Origin: Pseudoscleropodium purum
Lineage: Eukaryota > Streptophyta > Bryopsida > Hypnales > Brachytheciaceae
Direction of reading: 5' to 3'
Assembly (NCBI GenBank): GCA_963969395.1
Contig: OZ017803.1
Coordinates: 310,001-374,000 of the forward strand
DNA: 64,000 nucleotides
The position numbers and the translations under genes are program-made. This document shows, piece by piece, positions 430-56,614 of the stretch. The notes under the pieces were generated by a model. That model was not told the DNA's origin and did no database searches. It worked only from the letters and a program-made list of their open reading frames with translations. Position 1 is the first letter of the stretch. Every line of letters begins with the position of its first letter.

Positions 430-830
430 CAGGGTTAACAAATCAATACGTCCGCCCCAAAATAGCGTCCGTAACCTGGACGTCCGTCCTCACGGACGCC
501 AGCGGACGCAGCGTCCCTCCCGCCGTTGGAAGGCAGACGAGCGGGGCGGGGTGGTTTAGAAAACCCGTTTTGGGTTTTTTGTTTTGATTGTTTTTCACCA
601 ATGACAGATTGAGAGTGAAGTCATTTGGATTTGGATTTTTCTTATATTGCAATTGCGATTCAATAGAGTTGTATATCACTATTTATGTTTAAGGATTAAG
701 GGAGTGACCACGGGGCAATTTGGCTAGGGCAGTCAAGAGAAACAGGGCGGTCGAAGCGGACGGGGCGGTCCTGACAGACGCTGCGGACACAGCGTCCGCG
801 TCCAGACGTCCGATCGTCCTGTCAACCCTG
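430..830 (-). mobile_element. Miniature non-autonomous hAT element (copy A)
   Basis: The 401-bp element starts CAGGGTTAACAAAT and ends CCTGTCAACCCTG, so the termini are inverted repeats of the hAT type. It lies between CTTTATAG (422-429) and CTTTAAAG (831-838), an 8-bp target duplication with one mismatch. Both ends are CpG-rich and built of CGTCCG/GGACGC words, unlike the flanks. Its AT-rich core (about 550-690) is the inverted counterpart of 38320-38460, the 3' flank of the hAT transposase gene, so it looks like a deletion derivative of that family. It lies in the opposite orientation to the other copies here. No coding capacity; the 78-codon frame across it is incidental. Confidence 0.87.
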
Positions 831-27336: not shown

Positions 27337-27670
27337 CAGGGTTGACAGGACGTCCGGACGCGGACGCTGTGTCCGTAGCGTCCGCTGACATTTGCGGTCC
27401 CGGCGGACGCAGCGTCCGCTTGTCCCCCATTTGCCCGTCCGCCCCGTCCGCCCGTCCATCCGCCCGTCTGCCCGATTACGGCCGTCCGATCGACGCGCGG
27501 ACTGATATGGTCCGCATGATCTGGGCGTCCGCCTCGGGCGGTCAGGCCGTCCGCCCCGCCCGTCCGCTTTCCGACGGCGGTCGGGACGTTGCGTTCACTA
27601 GCGTCCGAGCGTCCGGACGTCCGGAAAACGGACGCTATTTTGGGGCGGACGTTGAGATTCGTCAACCCTG
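27337..27670 (+). mobile_element. Miniature non-autonomous hAT element (copy B)
   Basis: The 334-bp element begins CAGGGTTGACAGGACGTCCG and ends GATTCGTCAACCCTG. The flanks CAAATGGA (27329-27336) and CAAAGGGA (27671-27678) are an 8-bp target duplication with one mismatch. Its ends match copy C (56295-56614) and the ends of the 12.48 kb element in the same orientation. It sits in an exon-like stretch of the coilin-like gene; element plus duplication is 342 bp, a multiple of three, and the coding frame resumes after it (FSLSLGKEMQSTLNEQ), though stops inside the element block translation. A GT donor (CAAG/GTGAGT) lies just before the insertion, so it may instead lie at an intron start. Confidence 0.9.
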
Positions 27671-28690
27671 CAAAGGGAGATGTTGAGTTCTCATTGAGTT
27701 TGGGAAAGGAAATGCAATCTACACTAAATGAACAAAAGAGATTAAGGGCGTTGGAGTCGAGTGGGACGAAGTGAAAATGTTCCCTTCACATCGATTCACA
27801 TACATGAGTGTTTATCACATCAACATTCATTTTTAATGGATGAACAACCTTAATTATTTATATTTTTTGAATTTTGGATTGAGTATTGACGATTGAGTCA
27901 TTGGAAAGTATTAAGATCATACTTGTCTTTGCTTGGACGATCTTTGTCCATCTAGCTTTCTTGAAGAATGTAAAGGTTTCTTGGTATTTCACAATTTCAA
28001 CTAGAAAACGGGTTTTTGACATGTTTTGGTTGTGGATGTTTATTGTGCAAGCAAAACAATCTCTTAGTCCTACCTCCTAAACCTAGGGTGGATCCAAAAG
28101 GGATAGACGTAGAACCCTAGAAGTCCAAGAAGTCTTTAAGGAAGAAGAAACACGACAAAATAGCATGTGCAGACTATGGAAGTAGCCAAATTGTGTCTCA
28201 TGAATTGAATATGCTTGTAGGCTTGCCAAGATTAGAGCACATTGATAGAGGCGTTTCTGCAAAACCCAAGAAGAAAAAAAAGAAAAAAGAATAGAGAATT
28301 GGTTGAACAAGCTGGGCCAAATGTAAATTGTGTAGGTGCAAGTCCAACAAATGAGGCAGATGCACAGAAAGCAATGCCTAGCAAATGAAGGTACTATGTT
28401 TTGAACTCAGTTTTTCTCTTTTTTAATTATAGATTTTTTCTACTTGCAGGTCAAGTTTGTAGATGGTTTTTTTACTTTGGGAAGTCGATTAATAAGTTGG
28501 AAAGAACCTTCATTTCACTATTTTGCTTCTCTTACAGAAGCTAGAAGTTTGTGACATGCTCTCGTCACTTACTCTAGTTGGTGGTTAACTAATGTCGACC
28601 AAAGTAGAACCACTTAATTAACATATCTATTGTAGGTACAAAAGAGCTCAAGTGAGGCTGATAACATACACGGCTTGATTTTAATGTATC

Positions 28691-28916
28691 CAAGGTTGAT
28701 ACGACGTCCGGACGTCTGGGACGTCCGTACGCGGACGCTGTGTCCGCAGCGTCCGCTGACATTCGCGGTCCCCGCGGACGCAGCGTCCGCCGGGACCGCC
28801 CCGTCCGCCTGTCACCCCATCTGCCCTGTCCGCCCCGTTCGCTTTGACGGCCCTATTTCCCTCGACCGCCCTACCCAAACTGCCCCGCGGTCACTCCCTT
28901 AATCTTTAAACAATTT
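28691..28916 (+). repeat. Left subterminal CpG-rich block of the giant hAT
   Basis: After the left terminus the sequence consists of CGTCCG/GCGGAC words closely matching the left half of copy B (for example CGGACGCTGTGTCCG and GCGTCCGCTGACATT). It then continues into GCGGTCACTCCCTTAATC, which also occurs inverted in copy A near 698-715. AT-rich DNA follows from about 28917. Open frames across it are by-products of GC content. Confidence 0.75.
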
Positions 28917-29228
28917 AAAAGATTATAAAGTTTGACCATGAGTCCATGATAGTCTTGAAACTATGAAAAAATTCCAATTCATTTTCAGAAGGCAAACTAA
29001 AAAAGTTTGTGACTTCAAATATATATATATACTATTTAAAAAATCGAGATCAACACAAATACAAACATAATCAATATGGGCAAAATGTATTCAATTTAAT
29101 GTAGAATACCATACATTGTGCACATTTGGCTAATTGCACATATAATTTTTTTCATTCCAACTCTATATTTCTAAACTAATTTTTAATGCCTATATAACCT
29201 ATTCAACTACTACTTCTGCACTACCAAT

Positions 29229-30722
29229 CTAATATAAATGGCGGAAATGTTCATCTGGCATCGGCCAACGATATGTATTAGAAAATCGCGTAATCACATG
29301 GGCCAAACTAGTATTTTCATCGTCAGTTTTCGAAGAAATGCGCTTCAAGTAAGCATAAAACACTTTTGCAAAGTCATGAAAGGCAAATTGTGTCGCATTA
29401 GGTGTTTTTCGTAGCACGTTGAAATACGCCTCTGACATGTTGTTCCCATTCATCCGCCGAGCAATTTTTCGAATGGCATATTCTTCCGACTTACGTGAAT
29501 ACATCGGAATGACTTCCACATTTGCACCTGCTTTATGCAAATATACAATACGTGGATCCACCCACCATCTCCTCTGCAAAGTCTGTTTCATCTCATTTGC
29601 TGATGTAAACGTATGCAAAGACTTCATTGGTTGAGAAGTTAAGGTGGTCATGCCCCAATCGCAAACTCCAATGTACACACGTGACTCATCCTCTGGAAAA
29701 TGCAATAAGATGTTGTCCGGAGAAAGATCATTGTGCAAATGTCCAGCAAGATGCACTGCATACATTATATGCATAAACGCCCATGTCAACTCCGTGCGCT
29801 TCTTCCGATATCGTCCTAAATGGTGAGCTTTTACAACCTCCTCTTCGGTTGGATTTGTATACATCAAACGGATTTGAATGTTGTCTGGAAAGTCCTTATC
29901 CATATTCAACATTTGTCAAAGAGTTCCACCATTCCACCAATACGCATAACCTTCACACGTCGTTCCGTGCACCGCAGCAAACCGTATCACACCCGCGTGT
30001 GGAATTCGAACAGCCATTGATTCGTTTTGATGTTCTAACTTTGCAAAATCGGGTCGAGTTTAGTGGTGAATGGATTTCTTTGCCGCAAACTCCCAATGAG
30101 GAAGTATTCTTGGACATCCTTCAATACGAACCTTTCGAATCGTTGCATATCCACCTCTCATCGTTCTATCATCAACAGCAATCACGCGTGCTGTATCTGG
30201 AAGTGCTATGAGGTGCCGTTTGGTCCTTTTCGCTTCAGCAACTCCATCATTGCTTTTCCACCAACCAATTGAACCAACTCGATTGTGCGTTTTGGCGAAT
30301 GGAGCACATCGCCCTCTAAATAAGTCCGCTTTTAGAATCACTTCTTCAAACTGGGCGTCATTGGGTCGATATTCCTTGCCATATTTAACCAAAATGACTT
30401 TGGAATTCCACAAAGCGTCATGAACCTTGTTCTCCAAACATTTGGTGAAGTACGTTTTATGCATTTCGTCATGCCACTTCGTCACATTCAATGCATCCAA
30501 CAACATTTGTGTCATGTCTACCTTGAATTTAGACACGCACTCCTCTTGATATCTGATGTACTTATTGTTTAAAGACAATGTTGTTTCCGATTCATAAAAT
30601 TGAACGATGCGCTCAATCATAAATTTTTTGCATTCCTCCGAAGGACTTTGGCGAGCTACCTCCAAGTTTGATGGCCCCTCTCCATGTTTTAGCTTCGCAA
30701 CCTTCTTCTTCCCCTTCGTCAT
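29229..30722 (-). pseudogene. Protein-kinase-like gene with two in-frame stops
   Basis: One minus-strand frame of 498 codons runs from ATG at 30722 to TAG at 29229, broken only by TAA at 30060-30062 and TGA at 29916-29918, with no frameshift. Kinase features in order: a glycine loop-like MRGGYATIRKVRI (about codons 195-207), the lysine of EFAAKKS (about 215), a hinge-like stretch ending WWNGGTL just before the TGA, the catalytic loop HNDLSPDNILL (codons 330-340, HRD replaced by HND) and CDWGM (about 354-358, DFG replaced by DWG). The 190-residue N-terminal region is charged and unlike known domains. It lies between CpG-rich hAT blocks inside the 12.48 kb element, so it is probably transposon cargo. 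I cannot name the kinase subfamily. No introns were needed, which would fit a retro-copied or TE-resident gene. Confidence 0.8.
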
Positions 30723-30914
30723 CGTGACAAATGAAATTGATATAGATCAAATTTTTTAATTTGAAATTGAATTCACACGCAAGTGTCCAAAAAATTGGCA
30801 ACAAGGAGGCCCCAATAAATCACTCTTGCCTTGCCTCGAAAAGGAGCCAATGGAGGATGAACCACCAAGCTCTCCGCTCCACCTTGCATTCACAAGGGGC
30901 AAAGCAAAAGTGAC

Positions 30915-31456
30915 AATGCGGACGGCCCTAAACCGTCCGCCCGATCGGACGGGCCGGGGGTGGCGGTCGCATCGGCCGTCCGCCTCCCCGAAACCCTAGA
31001 GCCCCGTCCGCCCGATCGGATGGCCACGGGGCGGACAAATCTCGCGTCCGCCCGATTGGACGGTCCAGGGGGGCGGACGCATCGCCGTAACGAGGCGGAC
31101 GGGTATCGGGGCGGATGGGGCGGTCAGGGCGGACGCCGGATCCGACGGACAGGGCGAACAGGTATCGGGGCGGACGGGGCGGACAGGGCGGATGCATCGC
31201 CGTAACGAGGCGGACGGGTATTGGGGCGGATGGGGCAGTCAGGGCGGACGCCGGATCCGACGGACAAGGCGAACGGGTATCGGGGCGGACGGGGCGGACA
31301 TGGCAGACGGTGGACAGGTATCGGGGCGAACGGGGGTCTAGGCAGACGGGGCGGACGAGGCGGACAGGGCGGACGGCGGACAGGTATCGGGGCGGACGGG
31401 GGTCTGGGCGGATGGGGCGGACGGGTACGAGGGCGGATAGGGCGGTTTGACCCTAA
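30915..31456. promoter_or_regulatory. CpG-rich GCGGAC array upstream of the kinase-like gene
   Basis: Roughly 540 bp of almost pure GGGGCGGACGGG-type words, with the irregular repeat GGTATCGGGGCGGACG recurring at least five times. It begins about 190 bp upstream of the kinase-like ATG (30722, minus strand). The same short words make up the ends of all hAT copies in the window. Position suggests a promoter-proximal block and perhaps an array of transposase-binding sites; that is inference. An alternative is the terminus of another decayed copy. Long Gly/Arg/Pro-rich frames on both strands are artefacts. Confidence 0.5.
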
Positions 31457-34255
31457 AGCGACCCTAAACCCATATTTTGCACAATAAACAGAGGTCTTCA
31501 TGGCACTGTATAGTTCAACTAACTTTTCATTCATTCAATGTAAAATTTGAAATTAAAAAAGGTAGCCTTCCTTTATGACCAAATTTATGAATTCTTGGTA
31601 AATGATATTTTTGTACAAAGATATGAGCTAAAATGTGCAAAAATTCACGAAAGGATTGCGACGTTTAATATATGTATCCAAATATTCACGTTGCATTGTG
31701 TATAAAGCAATTGTAAGAAGGTAATTGAATAAAAATTCTACTATGAAATTGAATTAGTTGATGTCTAATCACTTAGTAAACCGCTAAATGTCCAAGTCCT
31801 TGCAAGTGTGTTTTGGCTATCGAAAAAGAGCATGGACTTATAGTTATCTCCAATGAAGCAAATTGTTCTTTTTTCAAAATCTCATGGTATAGATGTTTAA
31901 CCCCTAAAGTTCTTTTCACTAAAAACACTTCAAAACTGCTAGTAGTAGTGCAAATACCAAGTCTTGGAAGAAAAATACTTTTGGGCATATGTAACCGTAG
32001 GATCTTGTAGTAAATTAGTTGGAAAAGATGTGGAACAAATTTTAGACAAATCCACCATTTGGATTGTAAGATATTAGATATTGAGTGTTTCATTTAAGGG
32101 GGCTATTCAATTATGTCTATTAATGAACAATTGGTAGGCTAACAAACCTAACTTAGCATGTATTTTAATATTTGTTGCAATTGTTTTAGGAATATTATAA
32201 CATAATACTATTATAATATTCTTATAAATGATATAGTACTAAATCATTTCAAAATCAACAACATTTGAACACAATTTGTCAATCTTGTCTTCCATACTCC
32301 TTTAATGATATATATATATATAAATATATATAAATATATATACATATATAAAATATATTAGATAAATCAACATGAACAAATCAATGATTATATATTTCAT
32401 AGATCTATTCTTCATCAATCAAATAATAGTGCATGTGCAAATATAGACAAAGATGGTTTCTCCATTTGTTCCCAAAAATTAAATAAACAAATAGAGAAAG
32501 ATATGAAGTGAATGTTACTTGGAGAATTGAAGGGAAAGAAACTAAAGTACTCAATTGCATTTTATTAAATTGGAAAATTGCATGTGGATGGTATAAATTA
32601 ATCTTCATAGATGCTAAACTCATACGAGTTGCATTTCAACATTTATGATTTATGCAATTGATTGAATTGAAAGCTCTTGTAATTACATTTTCAAATTTTC
32701 GATTCAATCATTCAAATTTGCAAGAGTGATTTATGATAGATTTATAACTTTAAATGTGAAAGCATTCAATGCCTTTATGTGTTTGTTTATCAATATATTA
32801 ATTTTAAATAAATAATATTTTTTTTTATAACATATGCAGAAACCATTGCATTAAAAAAAACAAAAACTAAGAGCCAAGCCAAATAGGCTGGTCAAATGAA
32901 GAGAACAAGAGAACAAGAGCCCTACGAGAAAGCAAAGGAAAAAAAAAAATATCAAAAGGAATCAAAGGAAGGAGCAAGATGCATTCTTGCAAGACCGTAG
33001 AATACATAATGATTTCAAAATCCAAACACAAATATATTTTCCAATTTCAATGAGTCAAAAATGAACTCCCCTGCTCTCAAAGATTGTACAATGTACACGT
33101 TATACAAAACGAACATATAACAGAAAGAGTAGAAGACATCGTTTATCATGATTGAAAACTGAAATGATTTTTTCTTTCTATGTAGAATATTTTATGAAAT
33201 GTAACAATGTATTTAATTATCATAATAATTGGTAGAAATCTTTGTGCAATACATAGAAACATTTCATTCATGTGGAATTTTTTCATTTATTTAGGATTAA
33301 AATTGAAGTATTATACTCTACAAAGTACAAACCGAAAACAATATCATATACCTAAGTTCAAAAATTTGCAATTGTTTCGTGAATTCATTTTGAAAACTCA
33401 AACAAAGAAATATTTTATAATCAATATCTTGTTCATTTGAATCATTTCAAAATTCGAATTCCGAATTCAATTCCTATTTATAATAGAAATTATGTTTGTC
33501 AATTTTTTAGATCTTTAAACAATGAACCCTCTTTTTTTTAAAATTAATATTTAAAAACATCTGAAATAAGAATATTGGAATTACCCTTCAAAATAAATAT
33601 AGCACATGTATAAGTGTATAATGTATTCTACTCAACCAACTCAAGTAACGAATTTTTCTATGTTTTTAAGGAAAAATATAGCCATATATGATTTGAAAGT
33701 TAAAACATTGATTCTTTTTCTTTGTTTTCAAATCTAATCAAAATTTCATTAAAAAATATGAAAGACTCGATGTTCATTTGAAGATTGTGATGCACTTCTA
33801 ATTAGAAAACACAACCTTTCATTAAATATCATGAGGTTGAAATCCATTAAACTGTTATTCTAATTATGTATTGGGGCCTTTTTTTAAATTTTCATTTGCT
33901 TATGATGAAAAAGGAATTGATTATTTCTGCAAAACATTTGATTTCTTAATGAACTTTAAAAAAATCCCCACCATCTTCAGATCTTCTCAAAACCTATTTA
34001 GAAGGATAATATGAGTAAATAATCCAAACATATTTAACTTAACCACATTCCCCTCATTCGTAAAACAATTTAGGGGAGAAAAGAAAAGGTTTAGGGTAAT
34101 TAGGGTATAGGGTTTAGGGTTTACATTTTTTTTTAAAATAAAATGATAAATCAATTACATTGATCCTCATTTAGCAGTGATTATTAGGCTGTTTTTTTTT
34201 TGAAATGTTACCACTCTTTTTGAATAATATCGACCTCTTAGTATGCTCCAATGGA
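31457..34255. other. AT-rich interior spacer of the giant hAT
   Basis: About 2.8 kb separating the two cargo halves. A TA/TATATAAA microsatellite lies near 32308-32362. A short TTTAGGG-like run sits at about 34087-34125. No exon-like segment or domain was recognised; open frames at 31773, 32405 and 33207 look random. Confidence 0.5.
32308..32362. repeat. TA-rich microsatellite
   Basis: Alternating TATATA with ATAAATATATA interruptions, about 55 bp, within the AT-rich spacer. Confidence 0.75.
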
Positions 34256-34452
34256 CAGCTGGGCGGACGCCGTCGGCGGTCAATGTTTAAGTGGGGCGGT
34301 CGGCATGTCCAAAGCGCGGACGGCGTCGGAAGGCGGACAATGCGGACAGTCCCGTTCGACCGCCCCGTCCGACCGCCCTGTCCGCCGCGTCCGACCACCC
34401 GTCCGACCCGTTTGGCCTGTCCGCCCGACCGCCCCGTCCGGGCCGTTTCTTG
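34256..34452. promoter_or_regulatory. CpG-rich block upstream of the hAT transposase gene
   Basis: About 200 bp of GGGCGGACGCCGTCGG and CCGCCCCGTCCGACC words, bounded abruptly by AT-rich DNA, ending some 300 bp before the transposase ATG at 34758. It mirrors the arrangement at the kinase-like gene and uses the same words as the element's ends. A promoter/transposase-binding role is inference. The block might also be a relic terminus of a shorter element; its outer edge (GGACAGCTGGGCGGACG) does not match the family terminus well and no target duplication was found beside it. Confidence 0.5.
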
Positions 34453-34757
34453 TTTTTGAATGGAAACCCTAAAAATGAACCTTTAATTTTATGGAGGGGA
34501 CTATAAATGTTAGAAGAGAAGCTTTGGTATTCACTCTCGAAAAACCGAATGCTAAGATTTTCAAGGGCTATGAGTTTCAATTTATTAAGTCTTTTGCTTG
34601 GTAATGCATAGTTCGGTGGACGGGGGGGGGCTTTGATTTTCAAAGCTTTGTGTGACTAATTTCATTGATATTGTATACATTGTCACATTGTGGGTTTCAA
34701 ATTTAAAACATTCTATTGGTTTCTTTTGAAATTGAGGTAAAACATACACTTGTCAAT

Positions 34758-37700
34758 ATGGTGGCCAAACCGACGGGGGATTTTTCTCCTTGGTTTAGTG
34801 TGCAAGAGGGTGGTAAAGTAAAATGTAGGCTTTGCAAAGCGAGCATGTCAAGGAAGCTCAGCCGTATGTTCAGCCACTTAGGCTATTCTGGGCCTGAAGG
34901 TGTACGTGATAAAGGGGTGAGCCTTTGTCCACGATTACCAATGGCAGTTCGAGATTTATTTTGGCATTGCGAAGGAGTTTTTCCAAAACGCGTTGTAATG
35001 GACAATGTGGATGGCAACCCTGGCCCTTCAGATGTTCAAGAGTTTTCGGCCGGAAAGGTTGTGTCGCATTCTGATTACGAAGATTCTTGTCCAGCGTCCA
35101 AAGAATTGGTATCAATGGTATGTGCCACAACTGAAATGACTTTGAGTACGGAAGTTTTTGGTGAACGTGAAACCCCGAGGGCATCAAGTTCTAGGCCTCA
35201 GAGGCAAGGGAGCTTAGTGAATGGGTTTGAAGAAGGTCATAGACGCAAATTACATTCAGTGTGGGCAAATTTTTTTTATTCGGCGAACATACCATTTTCC
35301 GTGGCTCGAAATCCAGCTTTTAAAGAAGTAGTGAAGAAAACGGCTGCGTTTGGTAGGCCATACATTTCTCCTTTATACCACGACCTTCGGTACAAATTGT
35401 TGAATGAGGCGAAGATGAACATTCAGACACAGTTGAATGCACGGACTGAAGATAGCATTCGAAAATTTGGAGTAACATTGTCCATTGATGGATGGAGCTC
35501 CGTGACTAATCGACCTCTCATCAATGCCATGCTTGTATCATCCGCAGGTGAAGAATTTCTTGGATCTGTGGATACAAATGGTTGTGAAAAAAATGCGGAG
35601 TACTTGGCAGTTGTGTTGGAAAAGTTCATTGAACAAGTGGGGTCCAAGAACGTCGTGTTAATAACTACGGATAATGCTCCCGTGAATCCGTCCGCATGGG
35701 ATGTTATATCTACAAAATATCCTCATATTTTTTACCAAGGGTGCGTGGTACATGCATTGAATTTGTTGTTGAAGTTGGGCTGCACAGAAATGGATTGCTT
35801 CCAAATTGGATAAAGGAGTTCTTGTAGCTAAATTTATCAGGAAGAGACATATGCCGCTAGCTCTATTGCGAAAGTATTTGCCAAATCTTGGTCTCTTGAT
35901 GCCTAGGGATACAAGGTTCGCCTCTAAATTTATCATGATGGAGCGTTTGACAAAATTGAGAGGAGCATTGGAACAAACGGTGGTAGATCCGCAATGGGTT
36001 GAGTATGTAAATACTCTCAAGAAGAAACGTGGAGCTAAAGTCCAATCAAAAGACTTGGCCTTAGCGGTGAAGAAAATTGTTCTTGATGACCATTTTTGGA
36101 ATCGGTCCATCAATTATGTGGAGATGGTTGAACCAATCATATGTGCACTCCGCGATTTGGATTCAAAATCACCATGCATGGGGAAGGTGTTGCATATCAT
36201 GAGGAAGTTAGAGAAGCACGTGAACGGATTACAAAGTCCACCATTTTGTTTGCTAGAAGAACTTGCAATTCCATTGGTACAGTCTTTTTATGCCCGAAGA
36301 AGAATGGTGGACAACGATCTCCAATCAGCCGCAGCTCTTTTGAATCCATACCTTCTTCATGACAAAGAGCTAGCAGATGAGGCAGATGCAATGTCAGGAT
36401 GTAAGAAAGTTTTGGAGAGAATATGTAAACCGGATGAATATGCAGCAGTGGTGAAGGAATTTGTAGCTTTTCGACACAAGGAACCTCCATTCCACAATAT
36501 GTTGAATCCGGGAGATCAAATGTTGTCCGCACATGCTTGGTGGGATTTTGAAGGTGCATGTGGCAAGTTTATAGCTCCATTAGCGAAGAGGATATTGGCT
36601 CAACCGGTGTCATCATCTTCATGTGAACGAAATTGAAGCAACTATTCTTTTGTTCACAACAAATCTCGAAATAAATTGAAGCCGGAGAGCAACGGATTTG
36701 GTGTACGTGTATACCAATTCCAAAGTATTAAACGCATCGAAGGAAAAAGATGAAAAAAAATTGTATAATGATAATGTGGATCCGATGGAATCAGAGGATT
36801 CAGATAGGCCGACGTTAGAAGACGATGATGACGAGGATTTGGAAAGGGCCCTTTCAGCTGTAGATGGCGGAGATGACTTCAATCGTGCGACAGCATGGGG
36901 AGATGAAGACGTTATGGAAGGCTTTCCCTATTTGGTGAATGATACGCATGATTATCATCTAAACCGCAAGGATGTCGTTCTCGACAATGCAAACGATGCA
37001 TATACCTTTTGTGAAGACGAGGACAATGTAGGGGGAGAGGAGAATCTACCTTCTTTAGCTGCATATTGCAATAGAACGGGATACTTGAATAGCGAAAACA
37101 TTCTATCGGAAAAGGCAAACGCTATTGCCAAAGAGGTGAAAATCAATGAGAATGCTATTGGTGATGATGGGAGAAATGAAAAAGTTTTAATTTCTCAATC
37201 TCCATCTGTGGCATTAAATGTAGTGCAAGGAAACGACAAAAGAGAAGATGCGGTCATGGAGGTGGACGTTTCAAAAGATGTGGGCAATAATAGTGGTAAT
37301 GAGGGGGAATCAAATATTGCGGTACAAAAAAATAATGATTCACTTGGGATGGCAGTTACAAATTCGGCAATTGTGAAGAGTGATAAAAGAAAGGAGCCAA
37401 TGAAGTCAATTTTTGAAATACCGAGATCTAGTGCTCTTCCACCAATACCGTTGAAGTTTGTTAGCACACGATTGAATGATTCTCAGAGCTTTGGATATGG
37501 AAAACGCCTAATGAACATTTTCAAAGAAATTTCTACAGGCGGTAATCTACGGAAAGTAGCATCATCACCTACAAGCCTAAGTGATACGGATAGTGATCGG
37601 ATGCCATTGGCATCTTTGTGTGCTCGCATTTTAGCAAAAGGAATGGCGTAAGAACCGATCAAATCAACAAACGGCACTCTATTACTTCAAAAGAAAGCCA

Positions 37701-38092
37701 AAGTGGAGATAACCGTTCATGGACATGTCGACCCTACATCGAGATTGATGGTTCAAGAATCGAGTAACGTGAAAGCGAAAAGAGAAATGCAACTTTTTGC
37801 TATCTCTCCAGTGAAGAATAGGACCCCTCTTGATGAAAATGTTGCTACTTTGTCAAATAGAAAGAAAAGAAAGGTTCCTATTCAAAAAGCTTTTAATCGT
37901 TCTGTCAAAGTAAAAAAAGAAAAATTAAATTCGAAAGAAGGGAGTAAACCTACTTCGAGAGAAAACTTGAAGGAGACAACGATACTTGATTCCAACAATG
38001 AAGATGACTTCGATAATGAAGATTTTGAATGGAGAGCTGCAGGAGAAAGTAGTAGGGCTGAGGTTAGAGGAGATGTGGATTGGCGTCCATAG
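34758..38092 (+). pseudogene. hAT transposase, decayed, with long C-terminal extension
   Basis: Three connected plus-strand frames encode a hAT transposase. A BED-like finger (C23, C26, H40 from the ATG at 34758: KCRLCKASMS...FSHLGY) is followed by the RNase H-like core (LSIDGWSSVTNRPLINAML at about 35480-35530, LITTDNAP, and YQGCVVHALNLLL) and the C-terminal dimerisation region (WWDFEGACGKF, then SSSSCERN). Damage: a frameshift near 35775, TGA at 36634-36636 directly after CERN, a frameshift near 36690 and TAA at 37649-37651. Coding resembles protein again through VYVYTNSKVL and on to 38092. The roughly 460 codons after the dimerisation motif, first acidic (DDDDEDLE), later Lys-rich (NRKKRKVP), are unusual for the family, where the protein normally ends soon after. 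It would have been the mobilising enzyme of the elements here. Confidence 0.88.
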
Positions 38093-38309
38093 GAATTGTG
38101 GAGATGTGAATTGAGATGTTTGATTGTTTAGTTGCTTATAATATATGGAGCTCATGTTGACAAATGACAATGGTTTCTTCAATCATTTTATTATAAAATT
38201 GTTTGTTTATTGATGATATACATCTCGCTGGATTTTAAAGTGATTTTGTTTCTAAATCAAAATGAAATTCAACAAAAAAAATTAAAAATATATTTCATAT
38301 TTTAGCTTT

Positions 38310-38460
38310 TACATAAATAGTGATATACAACTCTATTGAATCGCAATTGCAATATAAGAAAAATCAAAATCAAAATGACTTCACTCTCAATCTCTCATTG
38401 GTGAAAACAATCAAAACAAAAAACCCAAAACGGGTTTTCTAAGCCGCCCCATCCGTCCGC
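38310..38460 (+). repeat. Right internal region shared with miniature copy A
   Basis: Sequence from AGTGATATACAACTCTATTG through AAAACGGGTTTTCTAAGCCG is the inverted counterpart of about 545-690 in copy A. It is the inner part of the right end of the transposase-bearing element. Its continuation (CCGCCCCGCCCGACC...) is found at 41033 onward, after the inserted segment 38461-41032. Confidence 0.8.
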
Positions 38461-38599
38461 TGTCGTGTTGTAAATAACTATATCATTTAAAAACATCAAA
38501 AGATTAACCTTGAACCCTAGTTCAAGAAAAGAGTTGAGATAGAAAAGGTGGGGGTCGTGGAGAAATCCACGGTCTTGGGTTGTACTGCATCTTATCACT

Positions 38600-38790
38600 T
38601 AGCTCAGGGGGACAGGGTGGCTGGCTGGTTGGCTAGTTATTTCTTGCTCTCACTAGCGGTGCCAAGTTGCAACTGCTCAGACCAAATCAACGAATCCGAC
38701 AAGATTCGAACCTGAAACCAGCTGACAGCTAATTGGGGACTTCTCCAACCAGCCAAGTCCGCAACTTGGCGGCCGTTGTTGATCCCAAGG
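38600..38790 (-). ncRNA. Possible tRNA-derived (SINE-like) segment
   Basis: On the minus strand the word GGTTCGAATC (38703-38712) fits the Pol III B-box. About 55 bases upstream GGCTGGTTGGAGAAGT resembles an A-box. The segment does not fold into a full tRNA cloverleaf that I could see, and no flanking duplication or tail was identified, so this is only a weak SINE candidate. Confidence 0.3.
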
Positions 38791-39089
38791 TGGTTTTATA
38801 CCACTGTTGATTGGCTGTTTAGTAAATTGACTAACGGAACAGTGTTCCTAAGTCTATTTTTTTTATCACATAGGTTACCTTTTGATACAAAAAAGAAAAA
38901 GAATATACGTTTGATTATTAGTATTTTGATTTTATTATAAAGATAGCTAGTATAGTGTGATTGGAGTATTTAAAGCAAAAGTAAGCTTCTTAAGGAAGCT
39001 ATTAGGTATAGAAATAGAGGAACTGAGTAGTATTGCTTCTCATGTTCTACTTTGAGTTGGTTATAGTTTGGGTTTTAGTATTCGTAGTT

Positions 39090-39503
39090 ATGGATTCACA
39101 AGACCCTGACGATTGGCAATTGCCATTATCGCAATTACCGGTTGTTCCAAATCAACCATCTTCATCAAGACTGCGTATGCAAGATGATGCTGGACCTTCT
39201 GAACGTCATGTTCAACCACGAACAGATCTAGGTAACCAGCAAACTTTATTGCCAGTTTTGCAATTGGATAAAAAGTCTTTGGTGATCGTTTTGGAATCTG
39301 AACCCGTGCTTTCCGAGAACTATCAAATGGTGTTTGAAGGGTGTTTTGAAAACAACGGTGAAGAACAAATGGTCACCTGTATTTCCAATGAAGTAGGCCA
39401 ACGCCTTTGGCTTCAAGGACCACTCAATTTATTGACCGCGGAACGGAGAGCTAAATACATTGCTGCTTTACTTTTGCGTGTTTTGGAGTTCTTAAGTGTG
39501 TAA
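39090..39503 (+). CDS. Hypothetical 137-residue protein
   Basis: An ATG-started frame with balanced protein-like composition: an N-terminal Asp/Gln/Pro-rich part (MDSQDPDDWQLPLSQLP), then a hydrophobic/charged part (KKSLVIVLESEPVLSENY) and an Ala/Leu-rich C-terminus. No signal peptide, membrane segment or known motif. It lies inside the 2.57 kb insertion at 38461-41032, so it may be a protein of that element. The codon composition is better than that of most short frames in the window, which is the only argument for it being real. Confidence 0.4.
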   Translation: MDSQDPDDWQLPLSQLPVVPNQPSSSRLRMQDDAGPSERHVQPRTDLGNQQTLLPVLQLDKKSLVIVLESEPVLSENYQMVFEGCFENNGEEQMVTCISNEVGQRLWLQGPLNLLTAERRAKYIAALLLRVLEFLSV

Positions 39504-41032
39504 AGCAAATGATTATGAAATCAGATTTTGTGGTGTTAAGGTAATGGATTTTAGCCTTTGTTTTAGGATTTTTGGCTACCACCAATTAAATTTTATTCAC
39601 ATTAGATGAAAGTAGTTGATTGTTTACCTTCCTTTTGTTGACTTTGGGATTAGTGGACCCAAAGAAGCATTTGGAATTTAGAATAAGTAGGATTTCAGGG
39701 AGCCTATAGGAATTTAGATGCTCACATGGGCTGATGTGGCCCATGTGGAAGGAGAAAGGGGGAAAGATTCTCTTCTCTCTCGTTGTCGACGTTGGTGTGA
39801 GGGTGTGAGTGTGTGGTGTGTTGTAGTGCAAAGAACCGAAACTTTGTTTGGTTGCTGTGTGTTGGAAAAGACGAATTTGAATACAAAATTTGGTGGAGTT
39901 ATACATGGTGGTGTTGCGCTTCTTTTAACAGTATTTTCACTTGATTTCAATGTTGTATGTAAATTTTATAGGCTTTTGAGTGAGGAGTAGTCTGTTGCTA
40001 CCCAAAAGGAGGAGCAAAGACTTTGTGCCTCTCCTAGAGTCACAAAAATTGTTAGAACAAAGTGAAAATCAAGTAGAATATAGATCAAGTTTTTATCTTT
40101 CTATCAAGCTATCAAACTTCTCATTACCATGTTTTTATCTCAAGTTATGAAGAGAAAGGCGAAGTAGTGTACTACCGCTAGAATTGCATGTAGGTGATCT
40201 TTGAGAGCACATAACTTGTAGGCAGTAGCTTTGTTTCAAGTGAAATTTTTATGCATCAAAGCTTACTGTATTAGCTTTCGAATGAGCTATCTCTTATCTA
40301 AAGTAGAGCTTTAGAACATTTTAGGTGCCCATTTTTGTACTGCTGATTTAAAAGAAGGTGAAAGAGACGATTGGAAGGTTAGAAGGTTGAAGATTGAAGT
40401 GAAGATTTGAAGAGTCAAGTGAAGACTTACCTTGCAAGGACCTAGCCTATGTTGTGGCTTGTGGCTCTGTTATTCCAAGCCAGATTTGGAGGCTCGTTGT
40501 CAATTTGTGTGGTGGGCATGTGGCTTTGTCAATTTTTTGCATTGTAAACCTTGTTTGCGGGTTTGGCCTGACATTGCGTACATGGCCTTACTCCATTTTG
40601 TGTCGTGGGCAACGAAGTGGGGTTGATGGCCCACATGGTTGAATCTTATGTCGTTCTCATGGTGAGACTGAATTGATCACCAGTAGACCGTGAATTTGAA
40701 AGTTTAGGAGCCATATTCACGGACGGTTCAGCTCGTGGTCTGCCGTCCGTTCTACCCGTCCCGTATCCTGTGGTTTCTTATCCCCTCCTTGACCCTTGAA
40801 CCCCTAGAACCATAACAGGATAGGCCAACATGGAGCTGATTCAAGAAAGTTGAAGATTCAAGGTTCGAGAAGACAACGTGTTGAAGATTCGAGGTGCAAA
40901 TGTACGAAAAGACATCCTATTGAAGATTCAAGGTTCGAGACAAGATCAAGCTAGAACCCCTACCCTTAAGTCATTTTTAGCAGCAGCCAGAATTCCTATG
41001 ATTTCCCAAGGCAAACTCCTCTCAATACGACA

Positions 41033-41170
41033 CCGCCCCGCCCGACCGCCCGGCCCCGTGCGTCCGCCTTCCGACGGCGGGAGGGACGTTGCGTCCGCTA
41101 GCGTCCGTGCGTCCGGACGTCCGGAAAACGGACGCTATTTTGGGGCGGACGTAGAGATTCGTCAACCCTG
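41033..41170 (+). repeat. Right terminal block of the giant hAT
   Basis: From CCGCCCCGCCCGACC to GATTCGTCAACCCTG the block matches the right end of copy B almost base for base, including GGAAAACGGACGCTATTTTG. It ends exactly at the AATGTATC duplication. Confidence 0.85.
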
Positions 41171-44039
41171 AATGTATCGACCCAGATTATGTGTAATATT
41201 CTAGACTCAGTCAACACTTTATAGTTTGAATTCTCTAACATATTACTTGCTTGCTTCGTTTTTGCTTAGAAAAGTCACACATGTGAAGGAGTCAACAAAC
41301 ACAGAAAAGCCTGCAAAAATTGAACCAATACCACAAAAGTTGAAACTAGAATTAGTCGGAAGGGAAAAAAACACAATAACCAACATGACACAAATCATGA
41401 TAATCATAAAACAGAAGTGCTGAATGAGAGGAGTTATGACAATGGTCTAATGAATATAAATGATGAAGTATTTGTGCCGCAATTCTTAAAATTTTTTAGG
41501 GCAAAAGTAAGGTTTGTAAAGTACACCTAGGATTAGTTATAGGTCTATAGGAAACCATGGGTGAATTTCGAATTCTTGGCATGACCCTAACCATATGCAT
41601 ATTTTGCGACACTTTCAAATTCTAATAGGCCCATTGTGCTTGTAGTAATTTTCTTTGGGCATATTACATTTACAAATACATTTAGTTAATGTGCAATTGT
41701 CCAAATGACTACTAATATTGATCCTCAAGTTCTAGCAAGATCTTACAATGTTATGCTGAGAATATCATCATTTAATACTGTTTTTATGTTTAATAGAATC
41801 ATCCATTGAGCGTATCCCAACCATGTTTGTTTGTTTACAATGTCATAGTATTGTAGTCTCTACGACAAATTGAATATTGTTGTTGTTTCATTTTTGGCAA
41901 TAATGAAGCGAAGGGAAACAATGGCATTCCTTTCAATAACAAAACCGCTCTTGAGCAAGCCAATACAACAAAGAAGGTTGCACTCTTGTTCTTCTCAGAT
42001 GTGGGATCACTTTCCAAAGTGAATTTTGAAAGTCTTATTAAAGAACAGATTAGAACTTTTTTTAAATTCAACAACAACTTACCAGCTCGAGTTGAAATGT
42101 ACCGAGGAGTTCTATTGATTGGAATGACGTTTGATTTTGACTGATGGTCAATTGATGTCCTGGCAGAGGCCCAACAGAAGTGCACGAAGGAAGAAAGCTA
42201 AGAGGAGGTGGTTGTGTGAACATGGACAAGTTAGCCTTTTATCAAAGCATTCTTTTATGAGTACATGTGTGTGTGGTCGACACTCTTAGAAGCTCTATTG
42301 TTGGCTGTCTTCTTCCTGCTTCCTACATTTCCTTGATGTTAATTGTCTATTTATTCAATTGGGTATAATTAATTTGATTTTAGAATGATTAGGTCAAAAG
42401 ATTATGTTGACTTTTGAAGTAGAGCCTATTTGTTTGTATTCATAATGGTATGCTCTTGTGGTTACAAAATGGCATTGTTCCAAAGAAAGATGATGCCAAG
42501 ATAGAGTAAAATGGAGCCAAAGAATCAAATAGATACCATGGATCTAAAACTTCAGAGGCTAAGGCAGAGGCAATGGTTGAGGCCACAATTGAGGCAGGGG
42601 CAAGGGCAAAAGAGGAAATTCTGCGTAGAATATGTGCCCTTGGTCAAATCCACTTTAAGCATGTTGAAGGTAATCACCATCATCATTGATGATTCATATG
42701 TTTGTCAGCCAAATCAATCATATTCTCTTATTCATATGTTAGTTTTTATTTCCCAAATGCTTTGTTGTCTTATTATTTTTCATACGCTCTATTTCTTGAT
42801 ATTGGTGTAGTATCTAATTTGAAGAATTGATATCATTATTTTTAAAAAGTTGTTTCTTATGATGACCATCATTTCAAGAAATTTTTTACTTGATGTAGAT
42901 GCAAGAGCTAAAGGGCAATGTACAACCGTAAGTCTTCTCATATTTGGAAATAAGGCGGGGATTGAGGGAAATTTCTTGGAATGTAGTAATACAACCCATT
43001 TTTTAGTACTCAAGAGGTGCTTTTCATATGGAGTAGTCCTTTGTGTCGAAACTAGCTAAAAGTGCATACTACACATGCTAGTGTTGAGACTATGTTGCAT
43101 ATTCATATACTTCTTTAGTGGTGAACAGGTTGACTTATGCTAAAAGCATTTGTTTCCAAGTAATTTTAATTTTTTGTTGTTTCAAGAAGTCTGGGTTTTT
43201 AAACATCTAATGATAGGGTTGTTCTCATATATGTAGCTTGCTTTGTTGTCATACATTGAAGTTCGCTGCAAAAAACAGGGGTAAGCCTAGAATCAAGGAA
43301 AATCCCAAGGTAGATATTTTGGAGATGGTTACAACAAGAATGGCAAGATGGAGAATAGACCCTCGAAGGGGATTGTGGAACAATCTCTTAGTGAAGGAGT
43401 TGTTGTGGACAAGATTGATTTTGAAAAGCTTCCTCTTCTCAATCGTATTCCTGTGGTATGCTTCTCTTCCTACCTCTTGCAATAGCATCTTTGTCTCAGA
43501 ACGTGAACTGTAATATGTGCATTAGTCAATGTTTCTTCTTTCTTCAAGATTGGGCTTACTTTAACAATTTTGTAGGAAAATTTGAATTCTTTATAATGGA
43601 ATCAAAGCTTGCTGCTAATACAACTTATTTAGAATGTATTTCTACATATTCTTTGTTTTTTGTTTAATGAGATTTGCTAATGTTGGATAAGGATTGCTTC
43701 TTTGACCAGGTAGGAGATCTTCCGGCATATCAATTGGTAGAACTGATGCCTTCTTGGACTCTTGAACTTTCCAGCTATAAAGTGTGTTTCATTTTGTTTC
43801 CATTATTGATATTTTGGTTGTAAAGTTTCTACATCAGCATACCTATATTACAATCGAGTATTTCTGACTGGCGTTTATATAGATACTCCTCCCAAGCTTT
43901 GTTATTGTGCAATGAGTGCATGTCACGTATTTTAGTGTCTAAGAGTTGTGTTCTTTTCTTGTTTTAGACCGGGAAAGTTTCTATCTATAATGGTGTGAGT
44001 AACATGATTACTTTGGAACCAATACCTGAGTATCCTATT

Positions 44040-56294: not shown

Positions 56295-56614
56295 CAGGGT
56301 TGATAGGACAGTCGGACATCCGGGACGTCCGGACGCGGACGCTGACATTCGCGGTCCCGGTGGACGCAACGTCCGCCGGGACCGCCCCGTCTGCCTATCC
56401 CCCCGTCCGCCCGGTTACAGCCGTCCGATCGACACGCGGACTGATGTGGTCCGCATGATCTGGGCGTCCACCTCGGGCCGTCCACCCTGCCCGTCCGCCC
56501 CGCCTTCTGACGGCGAAAGGGACGCTGCGTCTGTTGGCGTCCGTGAGGACGGACGTCCGGACGTCCGGGTTACGGACGCTATTTTGGGGTGGACGTACTG
56601 ATTTGTCAACCCTG
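56295..56614 (+). mobile_element. Miniature non-autonomous hAT element (copy C)
   Basis: The 320-bp element runs from CAGGGTTGATAGGACAGTCG to GATTTGTCAACCCTG and is flanked by a perfect 8-bp duplication ATTCTAGT (56287-56294, 56615-56622). Ends and interior closely match copy B. It has inserted into a unit of the 96-bp array, so it is younger than the array. CpG-rich throughout; the open frames in it are not genes. Confidence 0.95.

Follow-up and report, generated by a model that had tools for sequence, protein, structure and literature searches.

A high-copy hAT transposon family with a kinase-like gene beside its transposase in the moss Pseudoscleropodium purum

The stretch of the Pseudoscleropodium purum genome analysed here (64,000 nucleotides, positions 310,001 to 374,000 of contig OZ017803.1, assembly GCA_963969395.1; hereafter the window) contains a hAT transposon of 12.48 kb in which a gene for a kinase-like protein and the gene for the transposase are transcribed away from each other. 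It belongs to a family documented throughout the genome by its architecture, its copy number, its 8-bp target-site duplications, open copies of both genes and tight linkage between the two. The kinase gene is a standing part of this family and has spread with it; it was not freshly captured by the copy in the window.

The element in the window

The features of the window copy are listed below from left to right; the reference copy is an uninterrupted element elsewhere in the assembly.

28683..28690, no strand: left copy of the target-site duplication, AATGTATC (from sequence)
28691-41170: hAT element, window copy, 12.48 kb, both ends present
28691..28900, plus strand: left terminus and GC-rich subterminal repeats of CGTCCG/GTCCGCC words (from genome matches and motif counts)
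29229..30722, minus strand: kinase gene, single exon, 497 codons from an in-frame Met, broken in this copy
30910..31450, no strand: internal GC-rich CGTCCG/GTCCGCC cluster beside the 5' end of the kinase gene (from motif counts)
34250..34450, no strand: second internal GC-rich cluster, upstream of the transposase gene (from motif counts)
34758..38092, plus strand: hAT transposase gene, broken in this copy
38461..41032, no strand: nested insertion with ends TGTCGTGTTG and CAATACGACA and CCGC on both flanks, missing from the reference copy
39090-39500, plus strand: open reading frame of 137 amino acids within the nested insertion
41033..41170, plus strand: right subterminal repeats and right terminus ...GTCAACCCTG (from sequence and the reference copy)
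41171..41178, no strand: right copy of the target-site duplication, AATGTATC (from sequence)

A previous interpretation made from these letters alone (the sequence-only reading) had proposed a single hAT element with a perfect 8-bp duplication, and this is borne out: AATGTATC directly abuts both termini, outside CAAGGTTGATACGACG... at 28691 and ...GATTCGTCAACCCTG at 41170, and agrees at 8/8 positions. Its kinase-like gene and family transposase do lie between these ends, and the two-position divergence that it saw in the left terminus is also real. Relative to CAGGGTTGACACGACG, the commonest form among the copies read, positions 3 and 10 differ, both by changes of the C-to-T type (one on the opposite strand), which is the commonest class of difference between copies. 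Clusters of CGTCCG/GTCCGCC words occur at both ends of the element and next to the 5' end of each gene, against a background of 2-4 sites in 40 kb of window sequence outside the elements.

The same reading called the element unusually large. The span of 12.48 kb is real, but the reference copy measures 10.0 kb, and the excess is an unrelated repeat nested in the window copy. This repeat of 2.57 kb, with ends of the form TG...CA, matches 39 other places in the genome at 92-96%, over nearly its full length in 38 cases (among the best 40 of 489 candidates, window included), and the matches mostly end at the same two borders. Because it is missing from the reference copy and is matched elsewhere, we regard it as a separate, later insertion. 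Its 137-amino-acid open reading frame was considered as a third gene of the element and rejected, as the stretch that hosts it is the one absent from the reference copy and repeated at the 39 other places. The protein itself is strongly conserved (51 invariant positions over 15 aligned sequences) and has 250 homologues, three of which, among the 120 listed, are named from Ceratodon.

The window also holds three miniature inverted-repeat transposable element (MITE) copies, whose ends are of the same two types as those of the 12.48-kb element and in the orientation that the sequence-only reading had described.

430..830, minus strand: miniature copy, duplication 7/8, consisting of both ends and a stretch 3' of the transposase
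27337..27670, plus strand: miniature copy, duplication 7/8, about 1 kb to the left of the element
56295..56614, plus strand: miniature copy, perfect duplication ATTCTAGT (8/8)

Neither tRNA genes (ARAGORN) nor Rfam families at the gathering threshold were found in the window.

Copies, ends and linkage across the genome

The 313-Mb assembly (52 contigs) was searched for further copies. Among the best 45 of 2,514 candidate matches to the 210-base left end, window included, 40 cover at least 177 bases. The reference copy (C47:1416807-1426810) is 10,004 bp long, is flanked by CAAGATGG on both sides, has the terminal inverted repeat CAGGGTTGAC in identical form at both ends and keeps both genes open, with a transposase of 1,121 and a kinase of 497 amino acids. 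It aligns with the window copy nearly end to end, except for the nested repeat and an adjacent 66-base difference.

A perfect 8-bp duplication surrounds seven of the eight kinase-bearing copies for which both flanks were read, namely the window copy, the reference copy and five of six others (the duplication of L048 was scored by eye, because the last base of that element is A instead of G). For a given pair of ends, agreement of eight flanking bases by chance is expected about once in 65,000, assuming equal base use; yet seven of eight are perfect, which excludes a chance agreement. In all 30 kinase loci read (window and reference included), the left terminus lies 454-881 bp past the last matched kinase codon, with that of L062 placed from a separate locus comparison. 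Further copies with a kinase between such ends, for which the sequence-only reading had proposed to look, therefore exist, and the outcome that it had named in advance as its refutation did not occur.

Word searches allowing up to three mismatches gave 835 and 887 genome sites for two kinase words (887 for one of 28 bases) and 511 for a transposase word; reversed control words gave 0 sites for kinase and transposase alike. On contig C1, for which the exact word sites are complete, a divergent (head-to-head) kinase lies 3-8 kb away at 35 of 40 exact transposase sites, where random placement gives 0.19, and a kinase lies within 25 kb at 37 of the 40 (random placement, 0.76 on average). The first kinase word alone pairs 21 of these 40 sites. 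Among the best 85 of 1,551 candidate kinase matches, a transposase is listed within 15 kb of 37. These pairs are head to head in 36 cases and otherwise arranged in one, and the gap between the genes is 3.6-4.1 kb in all but three of the 36 (4.2, 5.5 and 7.1 kb). The suggestion that one element mobilised host-like cargo is thus not sustained: a one-off captured host gene (Pack-type) would not leave a kinase in one and the same divergent position at 35 of 40 exact transposase sites.

The two genes and their variation

Both genes of the window copy are decayed. The kinase frame has two in-frame stops, TAA at 30062-30060 and TGA at 29918-29916. Of the 85 best kinase matches, one is the window itself and the other 84 are at 93-96% amino-acid identity; the frame is stop-free over 503-504 codons in 36 of the 85 and contains a stop in the remaining 49. 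The 497-residue protein is built of a helical N-terminal part followed by a two-lobed kinase fold at residues 170-488, and K215, E234, D332, N337 and D355 are invariant across 46 aligned sequences. We take these to be the active-site residues, with roles assigned by motif, and the protein as predicted has the canonical eukaryotic protein kinase fold with its putative catalytic Lys, Glu, Asp and Asn. For the helical part, Foldseek returned no confident structural match (best E 1.8), and a Pfam scan of the kinase recognised no DNA-binding domain. Relatives from 73% down to 42% identity, compared as proteins, are alike in length and retain the catalytic residues, and one cluster of them from Ceratodon has 126 member sequences. 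Where relatives of the kinase and of the 137-amino-acid protein bear a plant name, it is that of the moss Ceratodon purpureus; one more named relative of the kinase is assigned to a Bacilli metagenome-assembled genome, and scans of viral contigs and GTDB genomes found no relatives of the kinase.

In the window copy the transposase gene shifts frame between 35773 and 35813, runs into a premature stop at 36634-36636, shifts again ahead of the frame opening at 36680 and meets another stop at 37649-37651. Uninterrupted, in the reference copy, it has 1,121 codons from Met. Residues 1-981 match PF04937 (DUF659, 6.7e-32) and PF05699 (hAT dimerisation, 3.1e-9), both above the curated cut-offs; a BED finger (PF02892) reaches E = 0.018 in the window copy, below the cut-off, and is unlisted in the uninterrupted copy scanned to E = 0.01. 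The last 461 residues, beyond the dimerisation region, are 19% acidic and have 3.5 CK2-like sites per 100 residues versus 1.2 in the rest of the protein; to our knowledge such a tail is unusual for a hAT transposase. The best 111 of 905 candidate matches to the N-terminal part all have at least 90% identity, and five of them lie in frames of 1,129-1,155 codons that are stop-free within the match.

Also among these matches are inverted pairs of equal-scoring transposase copies, 13-24 kb apart. They are candidates for true palindromes, for products of alternative transposition of hAT ends or for assembly artefacts.

C1:12222233/12241875; C42:10212991/10235321; C46:390642/406860; C40:20619470/20639737: inverted transposase pairs
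C44:13714889/13727917; C49:12646982/12671316; C47:8233485/8246707: inverted transposase pairs

Divergence between copies is about 3%, and the differences are mostly C-to-T, inside and outside CpG (kinase flanks of L039-L068). As this is what heavy cytosine methylation leads one to expect, the family is likely to be under silencing pressure. Among kinase variants common to at least two of 29 copies, the ratio of amino-acid to silent changes is 0.60 of the neutral expectation (p = 0.0027), close to the 0.63 of shared transposase variants; the singleton ratio for the transposase is 0.95 (p = 0.78, 20 copies). Copies of differing length were dropped from this test, 1 of 30 for the kinase and 10 of 30 for the transposase. 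The result lends support to a constrained kinase, and is not proof of one.

Possible roles of the kinase

The window copy is very probably a decayed member of a high-copy, two-gene moss hAT family whose kinase is its own, an accessory of the element. Its constant place, the open frames and the conservation in distant relatives suggest that the beneficiary of the kinase is the element and not the plant. A complete element of about 10 kb consists, from left to right, of the left terminus, the leftward kinase gene, a GC-rich cluster, an AT-rich spacer, the second GC-rich cluster, the rightward transposase gene and the right terminus. The transposase would move it by the cut-and-paste reaction of hAT elements, to judge from its family, and the kinase would probably phosphorylate either the transposase, with the acidic 461-residue tail as candidate, or a host factor that silences or repairs the element; we rate the tail and the silencing machinery of the host as putative substrates of about equal likelihood. 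The window copy would have inserted at AATGTATC and then, in either order, decayed through stops and frameshifts and received the unrelated 2.57-kb repeat. That the pair is an obligate one, in which the kinase licenses transposition through phosphorylation of the tail or disarmed silencing and both genes spread together through the mosses, is a tentative extension to which we give somewhat less than an even chance.

Several observations weigh against the two-gene interpretation. The Pfam scores of the kinase are weak (PF00069, E = 1.1e-4, under the cut-off), and it has HND and DWG in place of the HRD and DFG motifs. Of the six other copies with both flanks read, one (L054) has no matching duplication; at its locus there is also a second, inverted copy of the transposase at a distance of 13 kb. 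Kinase sites outnumber transposase sites across the genome (835 and 887 against 511), an excess that may reflect kinase-only derivatives of the element. On C1, a kinase in the expected position within 16 kb is missing at five of the 40 transposase sites, and of the 76 kinase sites only 35 are accompanied by a correctly placed exact transposase site; the unpaired kinase sites may be due in part to word sensitivity and in part to kinase-bearing derivatives without a full transposase. On C40, covered over its first 40.4 Mb, the first kinase word alone pairs only 19 of 37 transposase sites, and at five the kinase is otherwise arranged. In the selection test, neither the kinase singletons (0.81, p = 0.13) nor the shared transposase variants (0.63, 20 copies, p = 0.065) reach significance; the neutral spectrum comes from only 476 noncoding sites, choosing the copies by best protein similarity biases the ratios downwards, and the variants are counted as independent. 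Lastly, kinase and transposase distances between elements are uncorrelated (r = 0.15, p = 0.33, 10 elements, after one of 11 was excluded for its length), as in a star-like burst.

A rival reading, to which we give clearly less than an even chance, is that the transposase is not the target and the kinase acts as an anti-silencing factor, the GC-rich clusters being control regions of the family. VANC proteins bind short motifs in VANDALs, and the clusters of the moss element are found at either end and next to the 5' end of each gene, in a family whose C-to-T dominated differences make silencing pressure likely. VANC proteins also counteract the epigenetic silencing of VANDALs (PMC10398659). 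In the kinase, however, Pfam recognised no DNA-binding domain, and the helical part has no confident structural match. Moreover, hAT transposases bind subterminal repeats, which explains at least the terminal clusters.

It is improbable that the kinase is a passive passenger, acquired in a single capture of a host gene by a forerunner of the family and kept because the amplifying copy happened to hold it. Host genes are captured by hAT and other plant elements, 49 of the 85 kinase frames contain a stop and, at about 3% divergence, a single recent burst of copies descended from one master with a kinase could create linkage without function. Such a burst in this genome does not explain the relatives at 73-42% protein identity or the 126-member Ceratodon cluster, and the 36 stop-free frames and the amino-acid deficit among shared kinase variants also argue against it. 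That the ends at 28691 and 41170 belong to two separate, shorter elements whose 8-base agreement is accidental is hardly credible: related ends are abundant, with three miniatures in the window, the nearest 1 kb to the left, but nothing inside the window copy comes closer to a terminus than 3 mismatches in 13, seven of eight kinase-bearing copies with these two end types are perfectly duplicated at their flanks, and the reference copy, which matches nearly end to end, and five other copies refute the idea.

Classical hAT elements are known as one-gene transposons. The moss element is like those of the superfamily (Ac, Tam3) in its 8-bp duplications, short CAGGG-type terminal inverted repeats, miniature derivatives and transposase with DUF659 and the hAT dimerisation region, and differs from them in its length of about 10 kb, its transposase of 1,121 amino acids with a 461-residue acidic tail and its divergent kinase gene. 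VANDAL elements of Arabidopsis likewise pair the transposase with an additional gene and have short words clustered in their noncoding sequence, but they are Mutator-like, and VANC is an anti-silencing protein and no kinase. In rust fungi, IS3EU elements, as described in PMC12730594, are DNA transposons with an alpha-kinase gene opposite in orientation to the transposase; they belong to another superfamily and make 6-bp rather than 8-bp duplications. The same paper describes rust-fungus hAT7, a hAT element with a TET/JBP dioxygenase that in its author's view serves the element; it differs in its 7-bp duplications and in an accessory enzyme of the DNA-demethylation type, with no kinase. Searches of an open-access library, a collection without most subscription journals, listed no plant hAT with a kinase.

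A family of hundreds of copies with a kinase in a fixed place would demonstrate that a signalling enzyme can belong to a eukaryotic cut-and-paste element. The family would make possible a direct test of whether phosphorylation tunes a transposase or counters host silencing, and it may account for sets of similar kinase-like 'host' genes in moss annotations, such as the 126-member cluster in Ceratodon.

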